Assembly (NCBI GenBank): GCA_034687125.1
Contig: JAQGBZ010000006.1
Coordinates: 310,001 to 374,000 of the forward strand
Reading direction: 5' to 3'
Length of the DNA stretch: 64,000 nucleotides
Source: Neelides folsomi
Lineage: Eukaryota > Arthropoda > Collembola > Neelipleona > Neelidae
How positions within the stretch are numbered: position 1 is the first letter of the stretch; the number at the start of each line of letters is the position of its first letter. Shown piece after piece: positions 1 to 64,000 of the stretch. The notes under the pieces were generated by a model that saw only the letters and a list, made by a program, of their open reading frames with translations, searched no databases and was not told where the DNA came from. A program made the position numbers and the translations under genes.

Positions 1-3000
1 TTTTACATTCACTTACAATCGTGGATACGGAGACTGCAAAAATCCCGTTTCTCATGTGGACTCATGCAGCGATCCTTCAAAGCTTCTTTTTAAATACCAA
101 GCTTGCCCGGATGTTCTCAAGACCGAAAGCACAGGTAAAATAAATCAAACTCTTTTAGACATCTTCTTCCCAAAGTTGTGGAAATAATCGAAATGACTCC
201 ATTAAGATTTTAATGTCCATTTCCCTTAAAATTTTAAGGTAAAATTATTCAATGAGATTTTTCAAACTTTTATTCCTCGTATTCTTTTACTTGATGTTGA
301 AGTTGTTGAATCCCAGGAAAGTTTTTTTTAATACATGACTTCATATGGTTTATGTAGTTTGGAATTTAATTCTCTGTGCGTGAGGTTAAAAGAAAATATT
401 GAGCCAACTTTCACGACTTTCATGAACACTCGGCATTTGGAGTTGGAAAAAAATGAAGATGAGAAAGAGAAAGGGCGTTGGCTCCAATAGGTTACAATTA
501 TGGGCGTAGAACTTCAATTCATTTCTTAAGAATCAAAAGAAGTGATTAAGCGGAGGTGAGGGGTCTGGAAGCACTTGTGCGTGGTGAATCGAACAATTGT
601 ACTTTTGTCATTCATCTTCCAAGGTGGGCCAAATGTGTGTGTGCTGTGGGGGAGGATCGCCCTTCCCTAATTTCGGTCCTGGCCATGTAAGGGCCCTTGG
701 AGGGAAATCCACAAGTTCCCTTTACCATTTACATGAATAGGAAAATATGATAAATAAATAATGTTTGTTAATTTAGAGATGGCCAAAGGGGGATGGGGGT
801 TTTTGTCGTAGGGGGAAGGAAATTGGTTGGTTGTACTTCCGCAGCCGCTTGGTTCTTCGGCCCTTTGGCCGGGAGGAGTGTAATGTGAGGCTCTTGGGGA
901 AACAAATGGTGACTTGGCACGGAAGGCGGCTATCAGAATTTCAGAATCCACCGAGGGCCGCCGGGTCGTCGATCAGGGCGGTGTGACGGCCCGCCACACC
1001 CCCTCCCTCAATTACCCACCTCACTTTCCATCACACTCACCCCCAGAGACATTTTTCACCGTGTTATATTTATATACCGCCCGGTATATTCACATCTTCA
1101 TATTTGACACGACATCAACTCCCATTTCAAACAACCCAAATAAACGATCGTCCAATTCTTACTTTATATAAATTATAGAATTTGGCCAAAGGTCTCTATG
1201 AATCTAACGAATTGGCTACATCCACCTATGCCTATTTACAAACATAACTTATGAAATATTGTAGTATTTAACATAACATACGTAATCTAATATTCATTTT
1301 GTACGATATATGTATGGTACATAATATGTAAAAAATATTCATATGAGGCTCAAACATGCATTTACAAGTATTTGAAATCTCACCATTAGTTCAGATTTGT
1401 CTGATATCAAATGATGTAATTGTGCAACATAAGTATACACTTGTAGTGCAATGCGTAGTAATTTATACTTGATAAGAATCATAAACCCTAAACTATATTT
1501 AAAAATGCTATATTTAAGATATATGAAACTACAGATATACAAATATGTATAACTATGCGTAGCTTAATTATATGAATTTGTATTGAAGTGTGAATTTATC
1601 CTTTGATTTGCAGAAGAGGAGCTTGAGTGTTTGGGTAATTGGCGTGAGGGTTCGTATCAATATCTCGTGGGGCGAATTCATCACCGGCTCAGCACGCCAT
1701 CATCTGAAGATGCGTTCAGGTGCTTTGTTTTCGAAAAGATGAAATCGAGAGATTCGACCGGAGTGATTGGATACAAAGTGGCTCAATCCGGAGATGCCAC
1801 CTGCTCCGGTGTTTCAAATCCAACTGAAGGAGCAAAGACGCTCATTCTACAAAAAGGTTAATATAAACAAAGCCTTTATTAAATCCACTCTTTATAATTC
1901 TACACAACTCTATACAATTTGCTATATTTTACATAATATACATTTCTAGATCTTATACTTATTTTTGTACTTTATTGATCTTATAGCGGAAAGTACAGGA
2001 CCAAGATGCAAATTTCCATCCTGGCTCAGCTCAGCCCATTGGCACAGTCTTGATGGGCACATGTCAGTTAAATTACATCATAAGAACATGACCATCCACG
2101 TGGGAGAAAACCCAAGCGACCGAAGAGAACTCCGCTTCCCTTCTTCATCCCTCAGAAAAACGTATTTCAACGGAGGGACGCGAATGGCCTGTTTGTCCCG
2201 TTCCGACGTGTCTGATCGACACACATCAATCTTGGTCTACCACTCTGATGGCTGCAAACATCAACGAGTTTGTCTTCAGTTATTCAAGCGGGATCGGCAT
2301 GTTGTGGAAATTCAAGTGAGGGCCGTTCCGCTCGGACCCGCGTCGCTCGAGAGCGGGGATTTCGAATGCGGGTCGGGAATCGAGGCAAATGATTCGTTTG
2401 AGACTCTCGTCACCTCCGTCTCGGCTTCTGACTTGACATCGAGCCGATGCCCGTACCTGGGGAAATATTCCGCGACAGGTCTGACGCAAGAAGGCCGGGA
2501 GCCAAGAGACGTCTGTGGTGGGAGCAATGGAGCGGCAGAACTCAATTCCCTAGTTGTGGGATGCGGAGATCGAGCAACTATGGAATTCCCATCCATGTGT
2601 ACAACCTCACAACCTGTCACTTGTAAATAGCCATTATAATTAAATGATCATTTGAGCGATTATTAGAAAATTGGCAAAATTGAGAATAATTTTTAAGTTC
2701 AATTTTATTTAATTTTTAGCATATTTGTGCCACGGAAGTTGGGAAGAGGAAGGGAAAGGATTCCTTATTGCATCGCCGGTCTCTCGAACTTCCACCGGCC
2801 CGAGACGTTTCTGTTTCATTTACAGTCAGACAGACACAGGCCTGCGGGTGTCAGCGAGCAGTCACACGTGTCATCGAAATTTCTCACCAGGGCTCCAGGG
2901 CTCCTGGGCCTTCAACCTCACCGTTGATGGTAACAAAAATGAGCTTTTGATTTCTTTTACATATTAGGATCCTCCATGACTCAAGTTGATAAATTTGTCG

Positions 3001-8664: not shown

Positions 8665-10064
8665 TTAGAAGATACGGATCCGTCCGTTGCAGTCAATAAG
8701 AGCGGCGTAGCGTCCGAATGTGGCCACGTCCAAAGGAGATTCGATTTTCATCCCGTTGCTCATCACCTCCATCACGACCAAAGGAGTTCCGTCAGAGTTG
8801 AAGATCTTCACGGCGTTGTTCCGTGTGTCGACGACGTAGAGTTTCCCATCCTGGTTCACACTGAGCCCGGAAGGTCGGTAGAATTGGTGGCGGAGGATTC
8901 CCATAGTGCCCGGCTTCTTTCCAAGGTCCCCCGGGATCCGGAAGACTGAGTGAAGGTTGAAGTCGCTCATGTAGAGCCATTCCCCTTAAATATAAATATT
9001 TACATTAGCTTTTTACATTTGGATCTAACATATTAGTATAGAGAAAACTGACCTGTGGGATCAAAGGCGAGTCCTCGTGGGTGATCGAACCAAATGCCCG
9101 AACTCTCGTTGGAGAGAATGGCCTTGAACTTGAAGTCCTGAGAGAATAGTTGAAGCCGGCGGTTCCGAGAGTCCGCAATGACGAAGTTTCCATTGGGAGA
9201 GACAGCGATTCCCCATGGGTAGTAAAATTGACCCTCCTTCTTTCCTCTCAGTCCGACAGAATCGAGGAAGATTCCCTCCGGGGTGAACGCCTGGATTCGA
9301 TGGTTGTCCTTGTCCACTACCAGAATCCGGTTGTTTCGAGTGTCCCATCCAAGTCCAGTCGGTCGGTTGAATTGGCCCTCCTTCTCTCCGGGCTTTCCAA
9401 ACTTCCTCACAAATTCCCCGTCCGGGGCGTAAACCAAAACTTGGTGGAGTTCCCGATCAGCTACGTAGACCTGAATTAAAATAAAATTTAGTTAATCAAA
9501 GCTAATTAAATTCAATTCAAATTAAAGGTGGAAAAGAAAAGAGAGAAATGGAGAAAAGCTTACATGCTCGTTTGTAGGATTGACTGCAATTCCCCACGGC
9601 TTCTTCATGGTGAAGAGTCCCCCTTCCCGAGCTTCAATGTCCCAAGTGATGATGACTTTGGGCTGAGCGGGGTATTCTTTTGGGGTGAGGACGAAATCCT
9701 TCCATGGGTTCTTTGGCTCCTTCGGTGGGAATTCAAACGGCGGGGCCTCGAGGTCAGGTGAGGGGGTGGCGCTGCCATAGGCCGAATCGCATTCCTCCAA
9801 ATTGTCCACATCCTTCGTGACCCCAAAATCTCCCCAAAGGCTATCACAATTTGCCTTGAAAAGCAAAAGGAAAATTAGAAAGCCATCAAACCATTCATAT
9901 TGCATCTGATTCCTAATCATCGATCATCATCGTACCCAAAGCTCCTCCGAGGTTTTATCCTTAACGATCCATTTCCGAGGAGGGGATAAGAGTTTGAAAG
10001 GCAATTGGGTCAACATCTCATCCATCGAAGGGAATTGGTAGGCATCCATCGTCATTCCTTCCAT
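8665..10064 (-). CDS. Stand-alone NHL-repeat (six-bladed propeller) protein
   Basis: Four minus-strand exons (10064-9936, 9854-9564, 9470-9053, 8984-8665) give 385 aa. From about residue 125 to the C-terminus there are six NHL-type blades with the signature PxGIAV/PxGL...V.D..N.R(I/L)..F, for example GIAVSPNGNFVIADSRNRRL and GLSVNQDGKLYVVDTRNNAV. The first 120 residues are acidic/Pro-rich (PPFEFPPKEPKNPW) with no signal peptide. Blade wording resembles the NHL domains of TRIM/LIN-41/NHL-1-type proteins, which bind RNA or protein, but no RING, B-box, coiled coil or filamin domain is encoded. The start is the first ATG after the predicted transcription start; an in-frame TGA lies upstream, which excludes a longer protein from the same exon. 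A cytosolic adaptor role is only inference. Confidence 0.82.
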
Positions 10065-10583: not shown

Positions 10584-13500
10584 TTAAGAGTAGAAAGTAA
10601 GAACAGGAGTTTGATTTCCTCTGACGTACAAGACAGGACAAGTGATGTCCTTTGTCATTGTTTCCAACCACGCCATGTAAAGTGGAGCTGAGACGGAGCC
10701 TTTCCTTGGAACTGGCAGAGTCCTTTAAAAAGAAAATTTAATTAAACGAAATTTTAAATTTTAATTAATTATTATTCAATCTCATTAATGAAATTGTTCA
10801 AAATTGATAATTTAATATTCAACTCTTACATGAATAAAAAGCTAGCATTTTTGGAATGTTGAGCAACGGACTCTCTAATTCTCATATGGTAATTTGTTTT
10901 AGCACGAAGAAGTCTCAGTTCTCTTTCAGTAATTCCATCTTCATCTTCGTCCCCGTCTTTGGCCAAGAAGGGTTCAATCAAGGCGTCGAAATCAGCTTGA
11001 GTGGAATCCTTAGCTTTCTCGACGACGTCAGGAACCATGATCAAATCTCCTACTTGGATTCGGAATTTTGAGAGCATACTTGCCATTCTAATTTAATAAA
11101 TTAATTTTAATAAAAAATTAAATGGATCTTATTTTGAAAGTACATTGAACCCTTTTAATATAATATTATGAAATTAATAATTTTAGTGTTTCACTTTTAG
11201 TGTTTTAAATTGTGATTATTTTTTCCTTACTTTTTTTGTTCACTCTCAAGTTCATCTTTTTTGGCAGAAATTGTGAATATCCTCAAATGACATTCAGAAA
11301 AGAGTGATCTTTGGCTTATAATGTACGGGACGAGAACTGTCAATCCACCGTCGTCGAAAAGCCACCAAACGTCAATTGTTCCAGGTCGGAAACTCGTCGT
11401 GAATTGTGTCAAATTTTCCATTGTTTTCACGTCAAGGGTTTGTCCCCCTCGTCCTTTATAAGAAATCTTTTTCTCTTCTACTTTCTTGGCTTCTTTTTTA
11501 TCCTGTTTCGTCATTTTCGGTTTTTTCTCTCCTTCCGTATCTCCTATTAAGATAAAACAATGCCAAATTAAAAAAGAATTTACTTTGTACATTATTTGAT
11601 GTATGTAAGTATTGTGAATATTATTTATCTTTATAAATTATTATATTATATTATTATATTATTGAATACCTTGAGGCATCATTGAATTTGATCTAACAAT
11701 TAAAGATTTATTGGTTAGAAGTTCATTTAGTGAATGGGATCCATCTTCTTCGACCATTGAGGAATAATCCAACCCTTCTCGTACACGAAGAATTCCAATA
11801 GACAAATGCATGTTCAAGCACTCGCTGTAAGAAAATTCAGATTAAATTATAACATTTATTTTTATAACTAAATACATAAAAGGAATGACGTGATCTAATC
11901 GTTAAATTGTTGAGAATTTGAATTAAATATAAATATACTGAATAACGTTGACGTATTCCCAAAGATCGTTATTTCCCAACTCCCAATCCGACTTGTATCC
12001 CATTAGAACCATATTGGGTCTCAATCGTCCAAGACCAACCAGCTGCATAATTGATCGACAACCATCACCCAAAGCATCTTCTTCAACAACGGAATAAAAT
12101 CCTTTGATTTTATGTTTAGCAAGCCAAGTATAGGCTTCTTTACGAAGTGCATTTCGAACCCCTTGGCTATACTCTCCCTATATGATAAACGAGTTATTTG
12201 TATATTTTAATTGAATATTACTTTAAATTGACTTAAGTTTATTAAGAGAGTCAAACCTCTAAAACATGACCGCACACGATAAGTGACATGTCTTTGGTAA
12301 TAAGACGACCAAAATCCATAAGCGGGGTTCGACTACTAGGAAACCCGCTAAGAATAAGTAGTTGAGGTCGATAAGTTTTTACCTAATAAATTCAATAGTG
12401 AAAATTTTATATATGTATTAATATTAGTTACTTGATCTATTCTGAAATAAAATTATATTATTACATGTTCTTCCACTTTAGCAAGGTCTTGAACAGATTT
12501 GAGCGCTGTATTGTACTTTTGCATTTGGAACGAAGATCCCCAATTGACTGGCGGTGCTTTGTAAGTTACGTACAAATACAATGTGATACTCACACCTTAA
12601 AACAACCATTATTAAAATCTTATAAATTTTATTAAATAAATAAGTAATATATGATAATTTAAATGGCGACTATCAATTGAGAATAAGTGTCTTAATCATA
12701 AATACTTACCGACTGTTATGAGAGCCGTGACCCAGTTCAATAAAAACATTGTCACAACTAAAATAATGGATAAAATATCAATTAGCAAAATACACATTTC
12801 ATTATTGTTAATTATTGAGTTATTTCAATTTGTCGTTAGATATTTGCTCTTCAAATTAATTATTTGGGGCATTATGGCACTTTCTGTGTCTACATCCATG
12901 AGTATTTAATACAATTATATAGTTTACAATTATCACAGTAGGTGAAAAGAAAAATCTTTTCAGAGTGCCCCAAATAATATAATGATGCAAATCATGTAAA
13001 TGATTTTATAATTTAAGATCTTTTAGCTTGATTTTTTACTTACTGCAAAGTAAACTTCCACCTAAACTGACCCAAGCACTGTAATACTTGAATGATGGAC
13101 GCCACCCTGGTGATTTAGTAATACTGGCGTGGAAAACGGAAAAGTTAATCAAGCAATATGCAGACAAGAAGAAGTTGGATAAAAGTGGAGCGATCACGTT
13201 TAACTTGGCTATAAATTTTAATAAAAACCGTCAATTTTATTCATGTTATAAATGTTTAAATAAAAATGTGCTTTACCAATGAGCAGACATCCCACAGCTA
13301 TGGAAAAGACAAGAATATAACCCCTAACGGGATCATTGTTGGCTCCGTAGCCTTTAGAAAATATGTGAATGTATGGATATAACCTGTCCTTAGCCAAAGC
13401 CTATTAAAAATATAAAAAATACAATAAAAAATATAATGCAGATTATGAATTATTATTTTATTATTCATTGGTATGAATTAAAGCCATATAAATAATCCCA

Positions 13501-22734: not shown

Positions 22735-23234
22735 TTAACTGGATTGCTTTATTTTATTCTTTCGTTTTTTAGCTTTTGATTTTGTTTCATAGTTGTCACT
22801 TGGCTGAGATTGAGAACAAGCATCTGTAGTGGAATTCTCAGGGAAATGGATTGATTCAAGTTCTGCTAATAAAGCAGCTCTTTCTTCCTTCTTTTTCCTC
22901 CGATCAACGACAAGTTCAAGTTTTTTCCTTTGTTTTTTCGTAAGAATCCTTCCGACGGGGTCTTTGACGATTTTCATTGTTTTCCGTTTGGTCGAAGGGA
23001 GTATAAGAGGATTCGACTCATCATAGGTTCCGACTTGTTCAGCCACCTTAAAAATTTACAATTTGCCACATTAATAAAAATCCCCATTTCAGTTAAGTAA
23101 GTTTTACCATATTCCGTAAATAAATAATTTAATTGCAATATTATTTAACTTACTTCAGGAGTTTCAACTTTTGAAATTTTAACTTCCACTGGATTTCTTC
23201 CTTTCACATTAAATCTCTTCTTGTACTTCCCCAT
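22735..23234 (-). CDS. Free-standing N-terminal domain of DHX37-type RNA helicase
   Basis: Two minus-strand exons (23234-23154 and 23046-22735) give 130 aa. It starts MGKYKKRFNVKGRNP and continues with SNPLILPSTKRK, LTKKQRKKLE and a KKKEERAALLAELESI helix. This is the order and wording of the N-terminus of DHX37/Dhr1, the DEAH helicase of small-subunit ribosome assembly. The helicase core (about 1000 more residues in the family) is absent. The frame stops after a Lys-rich KAKKRKNKIKQSS tail, and I see no DEAH exons downstream on this strand. Two overlapping minus-strand AATAAA hexamers (22758-22748) lie inside the last codons, so the transcript may end right after the stop. It is either a truncated duplicate or a split-off gene. 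A donor-like CCA|GTTAAA at the stop leaves a small chance of an unseen exon. A nucleolar location is inferred. Confidence 0.65.
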
Positions 23235-23676: not shown

Positions 23677-26437
23677 ATGGAACCGATTTCTAAAGAACAG
23701 CGGTTGGCTCTTGCAAAGAAAAAGGCTAAATATTTTAAATTAATGAACAATTATCAAACTAAAATTATTTATAATCATTGTTTAATTTTGTGGATTAAAA
23801 AAGATTAGACTTTACATAACTATTATTTAATTTTCAAATTATTGGAATAATTGAAATTTTATTTGTTATTTTAGCTGGAAGATTACAAGAACAGAAACCA
23901 AAAATTAGAAAGTCCAAATCCAAGTCCATTAAACAACGTCCGTTTCCATTCAACTCCTTTTGACGATCCTACAAATGGAGTTCATGGAATTGAAAGTCAA
24001 AACCATCCAAACGACAGTCTTTCAAGGTCCAACATTTCTACAACGGAGTCTGAGAACCAAGGACTTGAAGGAGACAAATTCTACAATGACCAACCAAAAT
24101 TCAGAAAAAAACAAGAAAAAATCTGTGACATTTTTAGCCGAACTTCTCCATCACCTTTCGAAATCTTCAATGACAGTTTGAGTTTCGGGCTTGAAACCCA
24201 AATTTCGGACAATCCGATTCCTCCTCAAAACCAACAACCGGAAATTCACCCAAAACCTATTCAATATAATATGGCTGAAGTAACCCAAGACTCACTTTCT
24301 GAGACAATAACCAAAATCATTTCTCCCCAAGAACCTGAGAAATCTGAAGGTGTAAATGGAATCGGGAAGAAAGATTCGGGGATTCAAATTGTTGTTGAGA
24401 AAATTTCAGTCGAGACTCAAACAAGAGAGAGAAGAGAACCGAAAAGGGACAGTTCGGATATTGTTGAGTTATTGGAACTTCAGCTTAGCGAGTCGAAGAG
24501 AGACAATCATCGGCTGATTGGAAGAGAATGCGAACTTGTGAGCCAACTTGAAGACACTGAAAGAATTATTCAAGGGCTGAGAAGAGAAATATCAGGAGTG
24601 AAGGAAGTGACGAAAAAAGAATTTCAGCCCAAACTCTCTAAATTAATCGAAGAGAACGAGAAATTGAAAATTGATTTAACTGCAAAGGAAAAACAATTCA
24701 AAGAGATGGAAAGCGCTTTCATTCTTGTGGTAAGAATTACGATAAAAAATATAATTCCTTCATTTTCCTATTAACTTTATGATTAAATTATATGATTTTT
24801 AATTCGTTTAGAGTAACGCAAAGATGGATTTGGCCACTCAGCTTGATAATGAACGAGAAATATTTAAAAGTTCGACATCTGGAAATGAAATTCAATTCAA
24901 GTAATTTATTATCTACTTTATTCAACTAGTCATATTTATTTACCAATAAGAATTTAAGACCAAATCACTTTTAAAATAAACCTATCTGGTTTTTAATTTT
25001 TATCATATAATTTTATTAAATTAAACCTTTAATTTATTAGGAAAGAAATCGAAGAATTGAGGGCTGAAAATACAAAGCTTGCGAATAACCTCAAATACGC
25101 TGATGACATAAGAAGGCATTTAGAAATCCAAAATAAAAAACTCCGGGAGGAATTTCACGTGGTAATTATAATTCGATCTGGACATTTTTCAAAACTAACT
25201 TAAACTTATGATTATTTATTTAAGTCTTCAATTATTTTAAAATTTATTTGACAAATTAACAACATTATGGATACAAACGACAATTATTCAAAATGTTAGT
25301 ATAAAACAATTTTAGCTGAAAACTTTTCTTAAAAAGTAATAATGACTTTTATTGTTCTTCACAGGCAACTAATTCCAATGAAGGTGAAGACGTGTCAGCC
25401 ATTAGTCCAAGCCACCATTCCGAAGTCGACCACGTCCATCATGAAGGTTGTAAAGGAGAACCACACACACATGATCATCAAGAAGCTAAACATGAAGGAG
25501 AAAATTGTGAACATAACCATTCAACACATGATCATCATGGACACGATCATCATGGACACGATCATCATGACCATGATCACTCTGGACATGATCACCATGA
25601 GCATGATCACTCTGGACATGACCACTCTGGACATGATCATCACGATGGACATGAAAACCATCATCATGACCATGACCATCATGATCATGAGCATGGAGAC
25701 TCTTCTGGCCAAAAGAGGGAAAATAGCATGTCCGAAATGGAAAAGACACTCAAGCGACTTCAATGGGAAAATGAGAATTTCAGAACCGAACTTCAAAAGT
25801 TGATTGAAGCTGACAAGAAATTGAGTGTGATTGCATCAGAGGCAACTTTAGTCAAAGAAAGAAATGAGTTCCTTGAAAATGAGCTCAATCGACTTGAACA
25901 TCTTGTCATTCAACTTCAAGGAGAAAACGACACAATTGGTAAGTTATTTAATAGTTTTAATATACATACTAACAATAAGTACTTTAATCTACTATACATA
26001 TCAGTACTGACCTTATTGGCACAATTTTAGTAATAAGGAACAACACCCTTCCATCTACTAATATATAAAGTTTATTTTCTTTTAAAGATTTATTTTTTAA
26101 TTATTTAGGCGACTACGTCACCTTATACCAAGCTCAACGTCTTGCCCTCAAAGAGCGAGCAAAAGAGAAGGACGACGAAGTGGCTCGGATTTGCTGTGAA
26201 CGTGAAGAACTTCTTCGTAAACTTTCATCGCTTCATCTTCTGCTCAAGGGAGTTCCAAACCGCGGGGAGGAATGGGAAGAAAATATAACAGAAATTCTTT
26301 CATTGCTCGACCAGTTAAAAGAAGAGAAGGAGAAGCCAAGGGAGGAAGAAATCCAAACATCACCAGAGCCGCCAAAGTCCGTTCCAAAAGAAGTGACGCC
26401 TTGTACTCATTGTTCTGGGAAACTTCTTAATGTCTAA
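23677..26437 (+). CDS. GOLGA2: Golgin GM130 homologue with a histidine-rich insert
   Basis: Exons 23677-23724, 23875-24729, 24812-24900, 25041-25161, 25365-25938 and 26109-26437 join to 671 aa. The N-terminus (MEPISKEQRLALAKKK-LEDYK) matches the short basic p115-binding head of GM130. Residues ~150-370 and ~490-620 are Glu/Lys/Leu-rich coiled coil. Near the end, DYVTLYQAQRLALKERAKEK is the conserved golgin-A2 block. GM130 tethers vesicles at the cis-Golgi and binds GRASP65 through its C-terminus; here the chain ends in GKLLNV, a hydrophobic terminus. Between the coiled coils, residues ~388-485 form a His/Asp/Gly-rich segment with about 41 histidines, which I do not know from other GM130 proteins. 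The chain is shorter than vertebrate GM130 (about 1000 aa). The intron after codon 16 must use a GC donor (AAAAAG|GCTAAA) to stay in frame. Confidence 0.85.
25410..25704 (+). repeat. His/Asp-rich imperfect repeat within the golgin exon
   Basis: Degenerate in-frame repetition of CAT/CAC GAT/GAC GGA codons, encoding units such as GHDHH, DHDHSGHDHH and EHDHSGHDH. Synonymous codons alternate, so the DNA repeat is looser than the peptide repeat. It spans about residues 388-485 of the golgin. Such tracts in other proteins, for example ZIP and CDF transporters, bind zinc or other transition metals. Confidence 0.8.
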
Positions 26438-56700: not shown

Positions 56701-58160
56701 TCGGCCCTTTCTTCTTCCCAATTTCCAATATTCCAAAACAGTTCTGTAAATAAGGACAAAAACCACCCAGGCTATATATTTAAAACATAAAAGACTTGAT
56801 AAATTATCTAACAAAGATAGACTCAATATATCTACAATGTAATATTGCATAATACAAATACCCATAAGATAAATTTTCTCTATTATTTTGTTTACCATTC
56901 CTCCTGTTATTTTGTGTCTGTATTTATGTAATTTATTTAGGTAAGATATACTTAGGTATGTATACTACGATATATAATTTTGTATGCTATTGAAATTCTA
57001 CAGAATGTATTTTGTATTTATGATTTCGTGGATTATTCATTGGATTATACAACGACTCCATTTTAACATGAAATTGATCGCGAGTCAATAAATTTTGAAT
57101 GGGGGAGCGGAGGGGATTTGATTATTAAATTATTAAATTATCGAACATTTGTGAATTATACTAATGGGGAAAAGTTCAAAGCATAAAGTTAATATAATTT
57201 ATATACTTATGTTGTCTAAATTGTATAATTTGTGAGTCCCAAAGTCAATGAGACGAATGGGAGAAGAAAAGGGGTGAAAGTTGTATAAGTTTAAAATGGG
57301 TTGTTCCCTTATAACACCGAGAGTCCATGAAACCCATTCCGTCTCTCAATGTATTCCAAAGGGATGGATTTAATCTTCTTTTCCAGACGATGAGGTTCTG
57401 ATCCCCCTTTGAATTCCGGTGTAATTGATTCTTCATTCGTCACCCTTTCGACTCCCAACGAATTACGCCGGAAGGTTTCATTACGTCTGTTTTTTATAGC
57501 TTTCAAAAACATCCAGTTAGTTTTATATTAAATTGTTTTATTAAAAATTTAATACCGAATATATTAGAAGTTACATATTTGGCCATAGTTAAGAATATTG
57601 AAGTCCAGTAAAAGTTGTATGACATTAAATATTGAATATTTAAAAGCATTCCTAACTTTTTGCAAACCCCATCAATGCATTTCCATCTCATAAAATGGTC
57701 TATTCAAATGGAATTAAGAGGATTTGAGACACCTTGAGTGAAAAACATAAAAATGGATCTCTTGGCTCATCCATTATTCATACGAGAGCCCCTTGGAGTA
57801 ACGAAGGAGAGAACCCCGTGAACATTCTAATAAAATGAATTTTAACTCAACCCCTTACATACTTTTTCTTATTAGCTATTTATTAAGATAAAAAGTATTT
57901 CTTATATCAACTCTGTGAGTTTTAACTCATTAACAATGTATTTTAGTTAAAACATGAAATAACTTTTATTTTTAAAATTCAATTTAATTTAATGCAGAGC
58001 ACGTTATTCAATGGAATCAACAACAAATCTTTTTTTAATTATATGAAGCAATTACAGATATATGGTACTTATAACATATAACACTATGATAAATATTTAT
58101 ATTGAAAAACTCATTAAAAGCTTTTTCAATTTATGTTAATATAAATTCATCCGAATCAAC
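50710..58160. other. Gene-poor region with G+C-rich islands upstream of TOX
   Basis: The islands at about 51090-51610 and 53620-53960 are richer in G+C than the background and are separated by A+T-rich DNA with no frames showing recognisable domains. A minus-strand frame at 52328-52528 has protein-like composition but no start, splice or similarity support. The region is probably part of a long TOX 5' intron or its regulatory domain; that is inference. Confidence 0.35.
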
Positions 58161-58388
58161 ATTTTTTCAATTAAATATATTTTTATTCAATTAAGTTAAC
58201 TTTTATCCAATTAAATTTATTTTTATTCAATTAATTTTATTTTTATTCGATTAAGTAAACTTGTATTTGAGTGATTAAGTTAACTTTTATGCATTAAAGT
58301 TTATATTTATTCAATTAAATTTACATTTATTCAATTAAAATTATGTTTATTTAATTATGTTTAAACAATTTATTCAATTAAAGTTATA
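58161..58388 (+). repeat. 20-bp A+T-rich minisatellite
   Basis: Eleven consecutive units of the form TTTTATTCAATTAANTTTAT. Nine keep an exact 20-base period (58161, 58181, 58201, 58221, 58241 and so on) and two are expanded to 24 bases (58261 and 58345). Divergence between units indicates an old array. Confidence 0.85.
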
Positions 58389-61213
58389 TGGAATGAAAAG
58401 TCAACATGTTTTTGTAAGAGGGACATTTGGGGTGAACAAAAGGAATCTAATATGTTTAGGCAATATTATATCAACAGCTTTCTACATGACAGGACGGGAG
58501 ATTTGAGAGTGAAATACGTCGTTAAAGACAGAAACACCGGCGGTGTGTGTGTATGTGTGGATCTGTCTCTTGTTGACTCTTGTCGAAGGGAGAGAAGACG
58601 GAGGAAATCGCTGAGTTTTCCCATTCAGTGGAAGGAAAGAGAATTTAATTTGAGGGCCTCCAAACAGGAGAATCAAGGAGAGGAGATGAAAGGGAAATGG
58701 AATTGTAGGGGAGAGGAAAAGATAAATAATAAATACACATCTCCTACTTTCCACAATTACCAATGGCCACACCATAAGACTTTCCCCTTTGTGCCAAAGA
58801 TTTCAAACATTTGAAGGTTTGGAACATTTGATAGAAAGCAAGAGCAAGTATGGCAAGTTGTGCTCTGTGAGTGGGTGAGTGATGGCATGGGGCTGTTTTG
58901 AGGAAATCCTTCCCCCTCTGCCGAGGGAATAAATGATGTGGATCAATTAAAACTTTGGAGGAATGGGCGAGTAAAGAGAGAATAAATTTGAGAAAAAAGC
59001 AATTTAACAATATGAAAGTTGAAGATGAAAGGGGCTCCCCATGGTAATAGGATTGAAATTCTAATTTCGGCAGATAAAAGTTTGGGCACAAGGCCCCCCC
59101 TCCTTCCTCACCACTCCTCCCGGTCGATAGCAATCAATTTCGTAAAATTCAATTATTCTCCCAAAAACTTTCCTCCCCTCCGCCGGGAAAAAATCTGACT
59201 AATTGGAAAATGTTTTTAAACTTTCCTCTAAACCCCCTTCCTACTTTTCCTCTTAATAAGGAAGGAGAAACAATAAATGAGATTCCTCCAAAGTCCTCCA
59301 AAACACATATGAATTAAAATCGGGACCCGATGAGGGAAACGCACTTCAAAACTGAATAGTTTTACAATTTAAAATTCCAAGATTCCTAAATGGTTGGGAA
59401 ATGTTTTGGGCCTTCTTCCCAAATCCTTTCATCTTCCTTTATTTCCCTCTCTTTTCATCTCCTTTACAAGGAGGGAGCATCATAATACATTAGTTTGATA
59501 TATGGAGCCCTCCGCCATCAATATTATTTATTTTTCCCACATAGCCCTTCGTCATAATGCCTTATTTATTCGCTTTTATATTCACCGAGTATTTATATTG
59601 GCAAACTGGTAGTCGATTTTATAGGACGATCATGCTTTCATAAATTACTTTAATATAGGGCCTTTTATGGAGGTTGATAAGGATGGAAAGTAATAATAGT
59701 GATTGTCGTATAGAACCAAGTTTACTTTAATTTAAATCCTTTGTTTACTTTAACTTACCAATTTTGGAGTAATGTTGAGAGTAAACTCGAGCGAGTGGTA
59801 TATATTTATACAATTTAAATGCCATCATTAAAATATTGATTGATTCCCTCTGTTTGCATCTAATTTAAAATTAATGATGAAATTCCAATTTTAATTCAAA
59901 CCCAACGTCAAAACTTGCCTTGTGTTTCCCAACAATAACAATTAATTACAAAAACAATTATGTAAAAGTCCAAGACATATCATTTAATTAGTTCAAATAT
60001 TTTGCAATAACTCTTGATAAAACATTTATCTAAATTAATAAATATTTAAACCCATAATGTAATATTTTCATGTTCAATTTTACATATTTCCCTCATTTTA
60101 TATTCTTTAGTAATAACATGCAAATTTCCTTAATCTTGTATAATTTAAAATATAAATTATTGCAATTTAATGAATTTACATCTCGGCTCATATAAACCTC
60201 ACTACTTTTTCTCCTAATTACTTTATGATGACTTTCCCTTTGAAAAGTTTACAATTTAACTTCAAAAGAAACCTTCCCATAATTCTCTCATAACTTGTCG
60301 ACTCAAAGGAAGTGGAGTTAAGAATTAAAAGACAAACAAAAAGTGAAGAGATGAGAGATAATGAAGGGAGGAAGATATATCAAAAGCTCTATATATAAAT
60401 TCCATATAAGTATTTAGTTATCTCCTTATATCCCATGTTAGAGATTTATATTATTTAGAGTGTAACTGTGTAAGAAAGACTTAAAGTATGTATGAAAAGA
60501 GTAAATGGGTCTTTCACTTATACAGATTACCGATTCCTTAATATAAGAATGTCTTCCGAATGTCTTCTAGCGTATTTTTACTTTCCCCATCAAATAAACG
60601 CTCCGAGGGTCTTTAAGGCTCATAAACGTCAAAGCCTCATATTTATTTGGAAGGGAGTTCCTCTGTAGCAGAAATAGGGAAAATGTTCCCAAACACATAG
60701 GTTGAAGTTGTTGGGCGAATTGGGTATTTAGAAGTCTTTTGGACATTTCTCCTCCTTTTCCAAATAACGTTGAACTTGAGATTGGGGGAGTGTGAAGGAA
60801 GAACAACTTTATCTTTTAATTATAAATGGGGAAGGGCAAAGCGGAAGATTCCAGCGGATTCTAATGAGCAACTTCTCTCTTAAAAACCTCCCAAACATAC
60901 ACTTTAACTATTACTTTCCACTTGGAGAAATAATAGAGAAGGAAAAAACCAAATCGATGAAAAGAGCCCAAGTGGAAAATGAAGAATTAACGTTTGCATT
61001 TCCCGTTTTAACCACCAAACTTTCCTTTCTCAATTCCAGATTTATCATTTTAATTAACTTTTCAATAATTAAGGATATTTAAGCCGTTTCATTAATTTCC
61101 CTCCTTTCCCCTCATGCCAGTAATGTTTACTTTCAATTAAATTTTACGAGTTTAATAAAAGTACAATAACCAAGTTCAGATTATTTATATTAATTGTGTA
61201 TTTTTTTTTTCAG
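58389..61213. other. Non-coding region before the TOX exons
   Basis: A G+C-richer stretch with a (GT)n run lies at about 58490-59160. Its open frames on both strands are low-complexity. The remainder is A+T-rich and ends in a pyrimidine tract (T10) and CAG acceptor for the TOX exon at 61214. No first coding exon for TOX could be fixed here. Confidence 0.4.
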
Positions 61214-62082
61214 GGATCAGGCGGTGACAATTATGGAGCCTTGGGGCTCAATGGTCAAAATCACCAGTACAACGTGTCAGACCAGGTAATTTCAACTCTT
61301 CTAGTTGTTCAATTATTTAATTTCCAACTTGATAAATTCACTTTATATTTATTCAGCTAATTAAATTTAATGCGGTAATTAGTAAATGGTAAATAAAATA
61401 CAAGCAATCTAATGTGCTAAACTAATCTCTAGACATTCCACACTCCCAACTTTGGTGATGAAGAGTTTGAGATTCCTCCAATAAGCTTACCCCAGCAGCA
61501 GCAAGGATCCCATGCTCAACAAAATAACCATCAATACTCATACCAGCCCGTGAGCATTTATTTGACACTCTTCTAATTTATTAACCGCTCCCTTCAATCT
61601 TCCCCCATTCCTCACTCATCTTCCCAAATCCATTCCAAATAAAAGTTAATGAGCAATTAAAAATGTAATTCCTACCCAAACGCGTTAATAATTGATTACA
61701 ATTTGACAGATGGGGGATGGGAACGTGGGGCAGCATGGCGGGAACCATAACCATTATAATTCATATGAACCTTCCCAACAGCATTTTAGTGATTCAAATC
61801 CTCTCCAGACAATCCATCAGTGAGTCTCAATTAATACAATTAGTCGCCAGCTTGTTAGTAAAGTCAATATTAAAACTTGTCTTTGATGAAAATAGTGCAA
61901 ATTATTGCTCGAGTCCTCCAACTTACACAAACCTGAGTCCCCCCAAAGGACAACAACTCCAACAACAACAGCAGCAGCAACAACAACAACAGCAACAACA
62001 ACAACAGCAACACCAACAACAGCAACAACAACGTTTGGGTCCCGTGTCTCTCGACGACGACCCCGACGACACCTGCAACCAG
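61214..62082 (+). CDS. TOX: TOX-family HMG-box factor, internal exons (partial at both ends)
   Basis: Four exons, 61214-61285, 61433-61549, 61710-61819 and 61896-62082, join in phase (0,0,2,0) to 158 residues. The second exon carries FHTPNFGDEEFEIPPISL, the hallmark N-terminal block of TOX/TOX3/TOX4 proteins, and the preceding GGDNY...Q exon matches the position of the TOX4 N-terminal exon. The third is His/Asn/Gln-rich. The fourth ends with a polyglutamine tract (17 Gln, a His, 6 Gln) followed by an acidic LDDDPDDTCNQ. The HMG box that binds DNA should lie in exons beyond 64000, and the first coding exon is not identified (a very short one is expected). The protein would be a nuclear chromatin or transcription regulator. 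Confidence 0.82.
61957..62031 (+). repeat. CAA/CAG polyglutamine tract
   Basis: Mixed CAA and CAG codons encode 17 glutamines, one histidine and 6 more glutamines in the fourth TOX exon. The mixture of codons makes the tract less prone to slippage than pure CAG. The antisense poly-Leu/Val and poly-Cys frames are shadows. Confidence 0.9.
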
Positions 62083-64000
62083 GTGAGGGAATTCGGGCAA
62101 ATCTTCTTCTCCCTCTGAGAGAGTGAATGAATAAAAAGGAAAGGAGCTCTCCGGTCCTCCTCCTGAATATTTGATTCAATTTCTTCTTCCTCCGAAGGAA
62201 AAAGCAAATAAGTCATTTCTATGCAGAAATCGTTTTCTATTATGAATTCAGACTCTCCCCCTTTCTATAGGAGTCTTCATATTAGGAGAATAGAGTCATA
62301 AGAGAAACTCCACGTGTTTATACCCTTTCGTCTATGGTCCCTTCTTTGGAGGTCTATGTGGACCAAATGTGTATCTTATATGTAGCTGAAACTGAAAGAG
62401 GAAACTTTTTAAAAGGGGGAAAACTTTTTATTCTCCTCCCTCCTTTTGGCTCCCTTCTATATCCAACCAAACTTCCCGGAGAAAATGAGATTCTCCGGGA
62501 GAAAAGAAATGAAAGCAGTAAATGGCTTGTAAAAATAATAACATTGCATGAAATAAAAGGGGAATTTCTTCCATTCCCATCCATACATTACACCCATTAC
62601 AGACATACTCCGCAAGCAAAAGTATATGAGAATAGATCGGCGTATATGATCCTATTATTTATGTGGAATTTCTTATAATCTATACAGGTCTATTGTAAGA
62701 CTGTAATGGGAATATATTTAACATACAGGACTGATGGTTTAATAAATATATGACAATGGCCAATATTTCATATATGATCTATATATCCATCCAGATTGTA
62801 TAGCCATTTGAAAGAGTCAAAGTCTGTTTCCAAATATTATTATGCATTTACAAGAAAACACATTAGATTTCAAATTCACTAAATTCCGTATATATTAAAA
62901 AACATTAGCAAATTGTAATAATATATAACAAGAATAACGACCTATATACTCATTCATATTAAATATGTACTTGTAACTTACTTATTAATATTTGAATATG
63001 CTATATCAGTAGGGAGATGAATGAGAAATTGTATATTGAATAGGTATGGGTGATGTATAGGAGTTGAAACGAGGAGCGAAGGAGGAGCGAAAGAATCCTT
63101 TTTACTTTGTTTGTTTTTATACCTTTTTATTATGGAATATAAAAGATGGGGGAAAGTGGATGAAATGAAAAACAAATTTATTCTGAAAACTCGGGAGTTC
63201 CTCTCTAAAGTGTTCTTCTCCCTTTATAATATTACACAATCTATACATACTTTACCCTACGTATTATAAGACTTCATTCTTAAAGGAGAAAATAAGAAGG
63301 AATTGCTGGTGAATTGGAGATATGGTTTTAAAAGACATTTTCCCATATGAGCCTTTTACATTACGAGGGGAGTTCTATACTCAAAATGGTCCTCAATGGA
63401 GAGGGGCTCTTGTAATACAAAATTTTGTAAAAGCCACTTACTTCCTTAACTTGAATTTATTTACTTACTCTCGACAAAGGAGGAAGATGAAATGTGAATC
63501 CTCATTATAAATACAAAAAATACTCTTTTTAACCAAAAAACGTCTCTTCTGCTTGATGAGTCTTTAAGTTATTTTAAAAACAAAAAAGCTATTCAACCAG
63601 ACTCAGATTCCCTTTGTGTATAATTTCATTTACTTTATAAATACTAATCCAAATATCATGTAAACTTAATAGTTAAGTATCATATGTCTAATAAAGTTAT
63701 ATAATTAATAATGTATGTATACTGATAGCACTATAAAGGAAATATCAATATTTTCTCTGTATGAGTATTATTTCATTGAGTATAGCCCTTTAAAAGTTTT
63801 TAAATAGAAAATATTCTTGGCATTATTTCATTAAAACAATATGACCCTTTGTAAATCAACTTTTGACTAAATAATGAATTTATATGAAAACTCTTTATTC
63901 GAAAGGACAAAGTTGAGAGGAAGCGAAAGGCAATTAAGAGACACTCAAATTAAAAAAATCTAAACTTTTTTTATAAAATGCTAAACTTATATTAAAAACT
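62083..64000 (+). other. TOX intron running out of the window
   Basis: It starts at a good donor (CAG|GTGAGG). The remaining 1.9 kb is A+T-rich and has no further exon in phase 0 with TOX or HMG-box similarity. Nothing else was recognised. Confidence 0.5.

Follow-up and report, generated by a model that had tools for sequence, protein, structure and literature searches.

What is a run of 95 residues, 41 of them histidine, doing in a homologue of the golgin GM130? The question is raised by a stretch of 64,000 nucleotides of Neelides folsomi DNA (hereafter the window, C6:310001-374000, in an assembly of 75.1 Mb and 840 contigs), where such a tract lies between two coiled-coil regions. The first-pass annotation, made from the letters of this DNA, had proposed that the tract might make Golgi tethering sensitive to zinc or buffer the zinc of the Golgi. 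The evidence on the gene, on the composition and growth of the tract and on the C-terminus of the protein points to a probable hinge in the case of the tract and to the last residues of the protein as a better candidate for zinc-sensitive tethering.

Gene model and family assignment

The gene was modelled with six exons at 23677-26437 on the forward strand and encodes a protein of 671 residues. Exon 1 (23677-23724, MEPISKEQRLALAKKK) is uncertain, as the join of the lysine-rich N-terminus to exon 2 requires a GC donor (AAG followed by gctaaa), and this is the weak point of the model. Exon 2 (23875-24729), placed by its open frame and GT-AG borders, exon 3 (24812-24900), exon 4 (25041-25161), exon 5 (25365-25938) and exon 6 (26109-26437) have GT-AG borders throughout, those of exon 5 being an acceptor that ends in cttcacag and a donor that begins with gtaagtta. 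The first coiled-coil region, in exons 2-4, was judged by sequence alone; the histidine tract and the beginning of the second coiled-coil region both lie in exon 5, the remaining golgin coiled coil and the C-terminus in exon 6. The N-terminus reads MEPISKEQRLALAKKKLEDYKNRNQ and gave no profile match; it may resemble the lysine-rich p115-binding segment of vertebrate GM130.

The assignment to GM130, already made by the first-pass annotation, is borne out by a match to the Pfam family GOLGA2L5 at aa 533-621 (E = 2.5e-18; 66.7 bits, the cut-off being 29.2), which extends over exons 5 and 6 and is C-terminal to the tract. When the best candidates of a six-frame search of the whole 75.1-Mb assembly were scored with this family, a single match was obtained, at 26105-26284 in this same gene. 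Transporter domains (PF02535 and PF01545) were absent among the Pfam families matching the protein up to E = 1, and a sequence search of the PDB with the full protein returned three weak hits (E values of 0.014, 0.82 and 0.97), none of them a golgin. Adjoining the gene on the opposite strand is an open frame at 22735-23055 (minus strand) without a Pfam match, which looks like the N-terminal portion of a helicase of the DHX37 type.

Extent and composition of the histidine tract

The tract covers aa 387-481 (25410-25694, forward strand), and its 41 histidines are accompanied by 15 aspartates, 10 glutamates and 9 glycines; outside it, the translation holds 10 histidines in 577 positions (the stop symbol counted). 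The slightly longer interval 25410-25706 translates into 99 residues, again with 41 histidines, in agreement with the count and the coordinates given by the first-pass annotation, and its placing of the tract in one exon ahead of the C-terminal coiled coil also holds, given that the entire tract lies within the single open frame 25320-26030 and the modelled exon 25365-25938, with the GOLGA2L5 match downstream.

It could be argued that the segment is removed by splicing from some or all transcripts, leaving a protein without the tract, and exon 5 does contain one GTRA donor-like site at 25384 followed by four YAG sites downstream. However, the frame is open through the whole tract, and its G+C content of 43.5% is like that of the exons (33.7-45.6%) and far above that of the five modelled introns (14.7-21.8%), which makes the tract unlike a retained intron. 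We hold such a removal to be extremely improbable.

The order of residues within the tract is not random, as is evident from an excess of HDH, with 13 occurrences where 5000 shuffles of the tract's own residues average 2.7 and never reach 13, and from a deficit of HHH, which occurs once against a shuffle mean of 7.1. No enrichment over the shuffles was found for HxH (P 0.08) or HxxH (P 0.24), and HxxxH and HH were less frequent than in the shuffles; on these counts the idea of a designed metal site was dropped. A PDB sequence search with the tract gave zero matches up to E = 10. The antisense strand has an open frame at 25486-25749 (minus strand) that mirrors the repeat, with 12 histidines in 40 residues.

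Other histidine-rich stretches of the genome

Used as a query against its own assembly, the tract found itself and one further match (E = 0.8). A DNA pattern coding for HDHDH occurs at 33 places in the assembly, against 8 for the reversed control; two of the 33 lie inside the tract, and the other 31 are covered by 29 fetched loci. Four of these 29 loci have, in some open frame on either strand, at least 15 histidines in 40 residues (19, 17, 16 and 15), and the remaining 25 have at most 12, compared with 21 in the densest 40-residue stretch of the GM130 tract. The second densest stretch examined, with 19 in 40, belongs to L057 (G000:C342:25250-26250, minus strand), in an open frame of 333 aa (GDHHGSHHGSHHGGHH...).

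Zinc transporters were represented by a sample of 31 ZIP/CDF loci (L004-L034; two more ZIP matches yielded no locus), seven of which, from three gene places, have at least 10 histidines in 40, the maximum being 16. The ZIP gene on contig C30 of the same genome reaches 13 in 40, against 21 in the GM130 tract, and lends substance to the likeness to ZIP and CDF loops that the tract had been credited with at the outset. The GM130 tract is the densest among the loci examined, yet the genome has other histidine-rich stretches. Orthologues were also sought, as a long shot for stray animal DNA, among viral contigs, where none of 20 pattern matches was a relative by tblastn, and among prokaryote genome contigs, where none of 133 pattern matches was a relative.

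Repeat structure and origin of the tract

Tandem Repeats Finder identified a tandem repeat at 25526-25642 (forward strand) with two periods, one of 15 bp (7.8 copies) and one of 45 bp (2.6 copies). Duplication was tested by permuting synonymous codons among positions that share an amino acid. Surplus 12-mers number 38 in the tract DNA, compared with an average of 14.6 over 2000 such permutations (P 0.004), and the longest self-match of the tract DNA measures 25 bases, compared with 17.3 in 400 permutations (P 0.035). At a lag of five codons, which out of the 30 lags scanned is the one predicted from the 15-bp repeat period, the same codon is used in 30 of 38 equal residues, where a fraction of 0.60 was expected (P 0.0055), and the repeat core alone gives 20 of 26 at this lag (P 0.044). 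The 15-bp register therefore persists at silent positions, which shows that the tract grew by tandem duplication. In the mechanism that we propose, a unit some 15 bp long that codes for xHDH(H/S) would have been duplicated in tandem, with its HDH core kept.

Within eight contiguous units (aa 425-464), all three third-position columns of the HDH codons vary and none of the six first- and second-position columns does; in the two flanking codons of the same units, all six columns vary. The restriction of change in HDH to third positions weakly suggests selection on the peptide, in line with duplication and later retention of HDH by selection, and the constraint is suggestive only, because the run of units was chosen where HDH recurs and the test is thus partly conditioned. 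A pN/pS of 0.17 between repeat units (28 pairs among 8 units) was set aside, since the units had been picked by a motif containing HDH, which forces pN = 0 there. The first-pass annotation had taken the alternation of synonymous codons as a sign of selection on the peptide rather than of recent slippage, an argument that survives in part: the synonymous codons keep the register of the 15-bp duplication, which speaks against it, and the HDH codons vary at third positions only, which speaks for it.

Such a pattern of growth raises the alternative that the tract is neutral, the region between the coils tolerating any flexible sequence, a 15-bp unit having expanded by chance and the histidines having no particular role. 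The register visible at silent positions is what chance expansion would leave behind, other repeat-driven runs exist in the genome, for example the glutamine tract encoded at 61950-62032, and the four histidine-dense loci among the 29 with HDHDH fit as well. Neutral growth accounts less readily for HDH codons that change at third positions only, for the opening stretch (aa 387-424) of the tract, which is not repetitive and is likewise rich in histidine, and for the histidine-rich region reported at the same place in Drosophila, going by the accessible text of that report (PMC10272413). On balance, we judge neutral growth to be a rather unlikely explanation.

Metal binding, charge and condensation

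A dense array of HDH, amounting to about 164 histidines if the protein is a tetramer, might loosely bind cytosolic zinc or copper. In addition, the modelled charge of the tract depends on pH and on the pKa assumed for histidine: with a pKa of 6.5 it is -16.3 at pH 7.2 and +8.5 at pH 6.0, with a pKa of 7.0 it is -7.3 and +14.6, and with a pKa of 6.0 it is -20.7 and -2.2, i.e., still negative at pH 6.0. Given such binding and a strong charge change between pH 7.2 and 6, the tract could make bending or self-association dependent on metal or pH; a response of the tract to either is a plausible, chemically feasible proposal.

A more specific claim is that the tract serves as a cytosolic sensor or buffer of zinc or copper, so that metal on the tract alters tethering, as was proposed initially. 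Its composition and its HDH pattern resemble the ZIP loops of the same genome, and the 13 occurrences of HDH against 2.7 expected point in this direction, whereas the ligand spacings HxH and HxxH show no excess over the shuffles. As a peripheral protein, GM130 sits on the cytosolic side of the Golgi, and this location counts against the other half of the initial proposal, since it makes the buffering of zinc inside the Golgi unlikely. That the tract exists as a cytosolic sensor or buffer seems to us unlikely.

According to the available portion of one study, GM130 is a homotetramer with flexible linkers and forms liquid condensates by a mechanism that is unclear (PMC7160038). A low-complexity stretch of histidine and aspartate in such a tetramer could add weak multivalent contacts and strengthen the condensates, a possibility in keeping with the predicted lack of structure in the tract (AlphaFold, see below) and with the condensates formed by GM130 and other golgins, as described in the accessible parts of two reports (PMC7160038; PMC7589415). 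Mammalian GM130, however, phase-separates although it is neither low-complexity nor disordered, as far as the text available from the former goes (PMC7160038), so that such a tract is not needed for condensation. We regard a role of this kind as improbable.

A probable histidine-rich hinge with a precedent in Drosophila

The GM130 of Drosophila (dGM130, 795 aa) is described, in the part of the publication that was available, as having two coiled-coil regions (113-520 and 636-729), two golgin domains (274-498 and 605-725) and a histidine-rich region near aa 550, which lies between the coiled-coil regions and is interpreted as a hinge; the proline stretch that forms the hinge of rat GM130 is said there to be absent from dGM130, and several His-Pro motifs to occur in the histidine-rich region (PMC10272413). 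According to the first-pass annotation, no such tract occurs in known GM130 proteins, a statement that this published region contradicts.

The Neelides tract has a similar setting. Its end at aa 481 is separated by 52 residues from the start of the golgin match at aa 533, and the corresponding positions in Drosophila, as given in the accessible text, are about 550 and 605 (PMC10272413). When exon 5 alone was submitted to AlphaFold without an alignment, residues 1-123 were predicted to be unstructured (block pLDDT 47-60) and one helix was predicted at residues 124-190 (block pLDDT 80-98), equivalent to aa 495-561. As in a hinge of the Drosophila type, a histidine-rich tract that is not a coil and is predicted to be disordered (aa 387-481) precedes the predicted helix and the golgin match. 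With one proline in its 95 residues and no HP motif, it shares with the Drosophila region only the place and the histidine content.

We contend that the tract is probably an expanded, disordered, histidine-rich hinge joining the first and second coiled-coil regions, possibly one that binds metal or is sensitive to pH. Lying in the position of the Drosophila histidine-rich region and of the rat proline hinge, it would be a flexible joint that lets the rod bend; judging by these parallels, the Neelides GM130 may use it as a hinge and may answer to metal or pH through it. Zinc or acidity might then influence the function of the tether, and a histidine-rich hinge of this kind would be a second, very dense example beside that of Drosophila, usable for work on bending, metal binding and condensates.

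The C-terminal tail and GRASP

A different part of the protein recalls a known zinc site. In the accessible text of its structural description, Golgin-45 ends in CCNHCQGELIAL, the last 11 residues being CNHCQGELIAL (chain PDB 5h3j_B); Cys393 and Cys396, together with His18 and Cys103 of GRASP55, make up a zinc finger-like site, the last residues fill the PDZ1 groove of GRASP55, and in the vertebrate pair of GM130 and GRASP65 the zinc site is reportedly not formed (PMC6660245). The last 11 residues of the Neelides protein, CTHCSGKLLNV (26402-26434, forward strand), align without gaps with the Golgin-45 tail up to the final residue and likewise consist of CxxC and seven residues whose end would serve as a PDZ ligand (CTHC-SGKLLNV). 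The KLLNV end, with hydrophobic residues in the final and third-last positions, is nearer to the tail of Golgin-45 than to KITVI, that of GM130.

This agreement stands out against other tails. The BLOSUM62 score over 11 residues is 38, against 18 for the best of 3774 other open-frame tails, and extending the comparison to 14 residues gives 34 for the Neelides tail and 27 for the best other tail, these null tails being mechanical open frames from the window and the loci, not a proteome. None of 100000 shuffles of the protein's own 30-residue tail reached a score of 38. Over 21 residues the score drops to 25, and upstream of the first cysteine there is no stretch like TRYENITF. No match was obtained when the 21-aa tail of Golgin-45 was searched in the assembly, a search without a positive control; the protein's own 30-aa tail found itself alone in the assembly and nothing in the PDB up to E = 10.

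The genome gave two GRASP matches, neighbouring exons on one strand, and in this GRASP gene (G000:C503) His18 and Cys103 are aligned with the GRASP2 chains of the PDB. GRASP65 also has His18 and Cys103, so their presence permits a zinc site but is no proof of it. In the literature on GM130, Golgin-45, GRASP and zinc, no description of a zinc tail on GM130 was found, which is weak evidence of absence as subscription papers were mostly outside the coverage. On the strength of this resemblance, the C-terminus at 26402-26434, about which the first-pass annotation was silent, is a better candidate for zinc-sensitive tethering than the tract.

It can be speculated that the Neelides GM130 combines two metal-responsive elements, the CTHC tail locking GRASP through zinc and the histidine hinge gathering cytosolic zinc or copper nearby, with the result that cytosolic metal would govern stacking and tethering and GM130 alone would do the zinc-bridged job of vertebrate Golgin-45; we consider this combined scheme quite doubtful. 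Zinc has been called a molecular glue of the Golgi cisternae that binds GRASP55 and Golgin-45, in the available part of a review (PMC13234162). A Cys-His tail of this kind on GM130, beside a GRASP bearing the partner residues, would suggest a zinc bridge common to more golgins than is seen in the vertebrate pair.

Other features of the window

The glutamine tract mentioned above belongs to an open frame at 61696-62115 (forward strand), where it is long and contains a CAA/CAG repeat of 15-bp period at 61950-62032. An A+T-rich tandem repeat of about 230 bp with periods of 20, 40 and 84 bp is located at 58158-58389. Further open frames match DUF7043 (1950-2630, forward strand), NHL repeats (9033-9491, minus strand) and SLC12 (11227-11637, minus strand).

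Comparison with known systems

With the loops of ZIP and CDF transporters, the tract shares the alternation of histidine with aspartate, glycine and serine; it differs in belonging to a GM130 homologue without a transporter domain and in being denser, with 21 against at most 16 histidines in 40. Rat and human GM130 have the same C-terminal golgin coiled coil (GOLGA2L5) and a hinge between coiled coils, but that of the rat is rich in proline, according to the accessible text (PMC10272413), where the tract of the Neelides homologue is rich in histidine. Golgin-45 is resembled in the end of the form CxHCxGxL-hydrophobic-x-hydrophobic, which is in register, and in that the Neelides genome encodes a GRASP that has His18 and Cys103, as measured against PDB 5h3j and the available text of its description (PMC6660245); the body of the Neelides protein, however, is that of a GM130-type golgin (GOLGA2L5), and the likeness to TRYENITF upstream of the cysteines is missing. 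The tail of human GM130 (PDB 4rey chain B), in turn, differs in having no CxHC seven residues before its end.

The Drosophila dGM130 belongs to the same family and also carries its histidine-rich stretch between the two coiled-coil regions, some 50 residues before the C-terminal golgin domain; its His-Pro motifs set it apart from the HDH and GHDHH units and the single proline found here, a comparison that follows the description in the accessible part of the paper (PMC10272413). As a kind, the tract has a precedent in Drosophila, and what is new is a matter of degree, namely its density and its HDH pattern.
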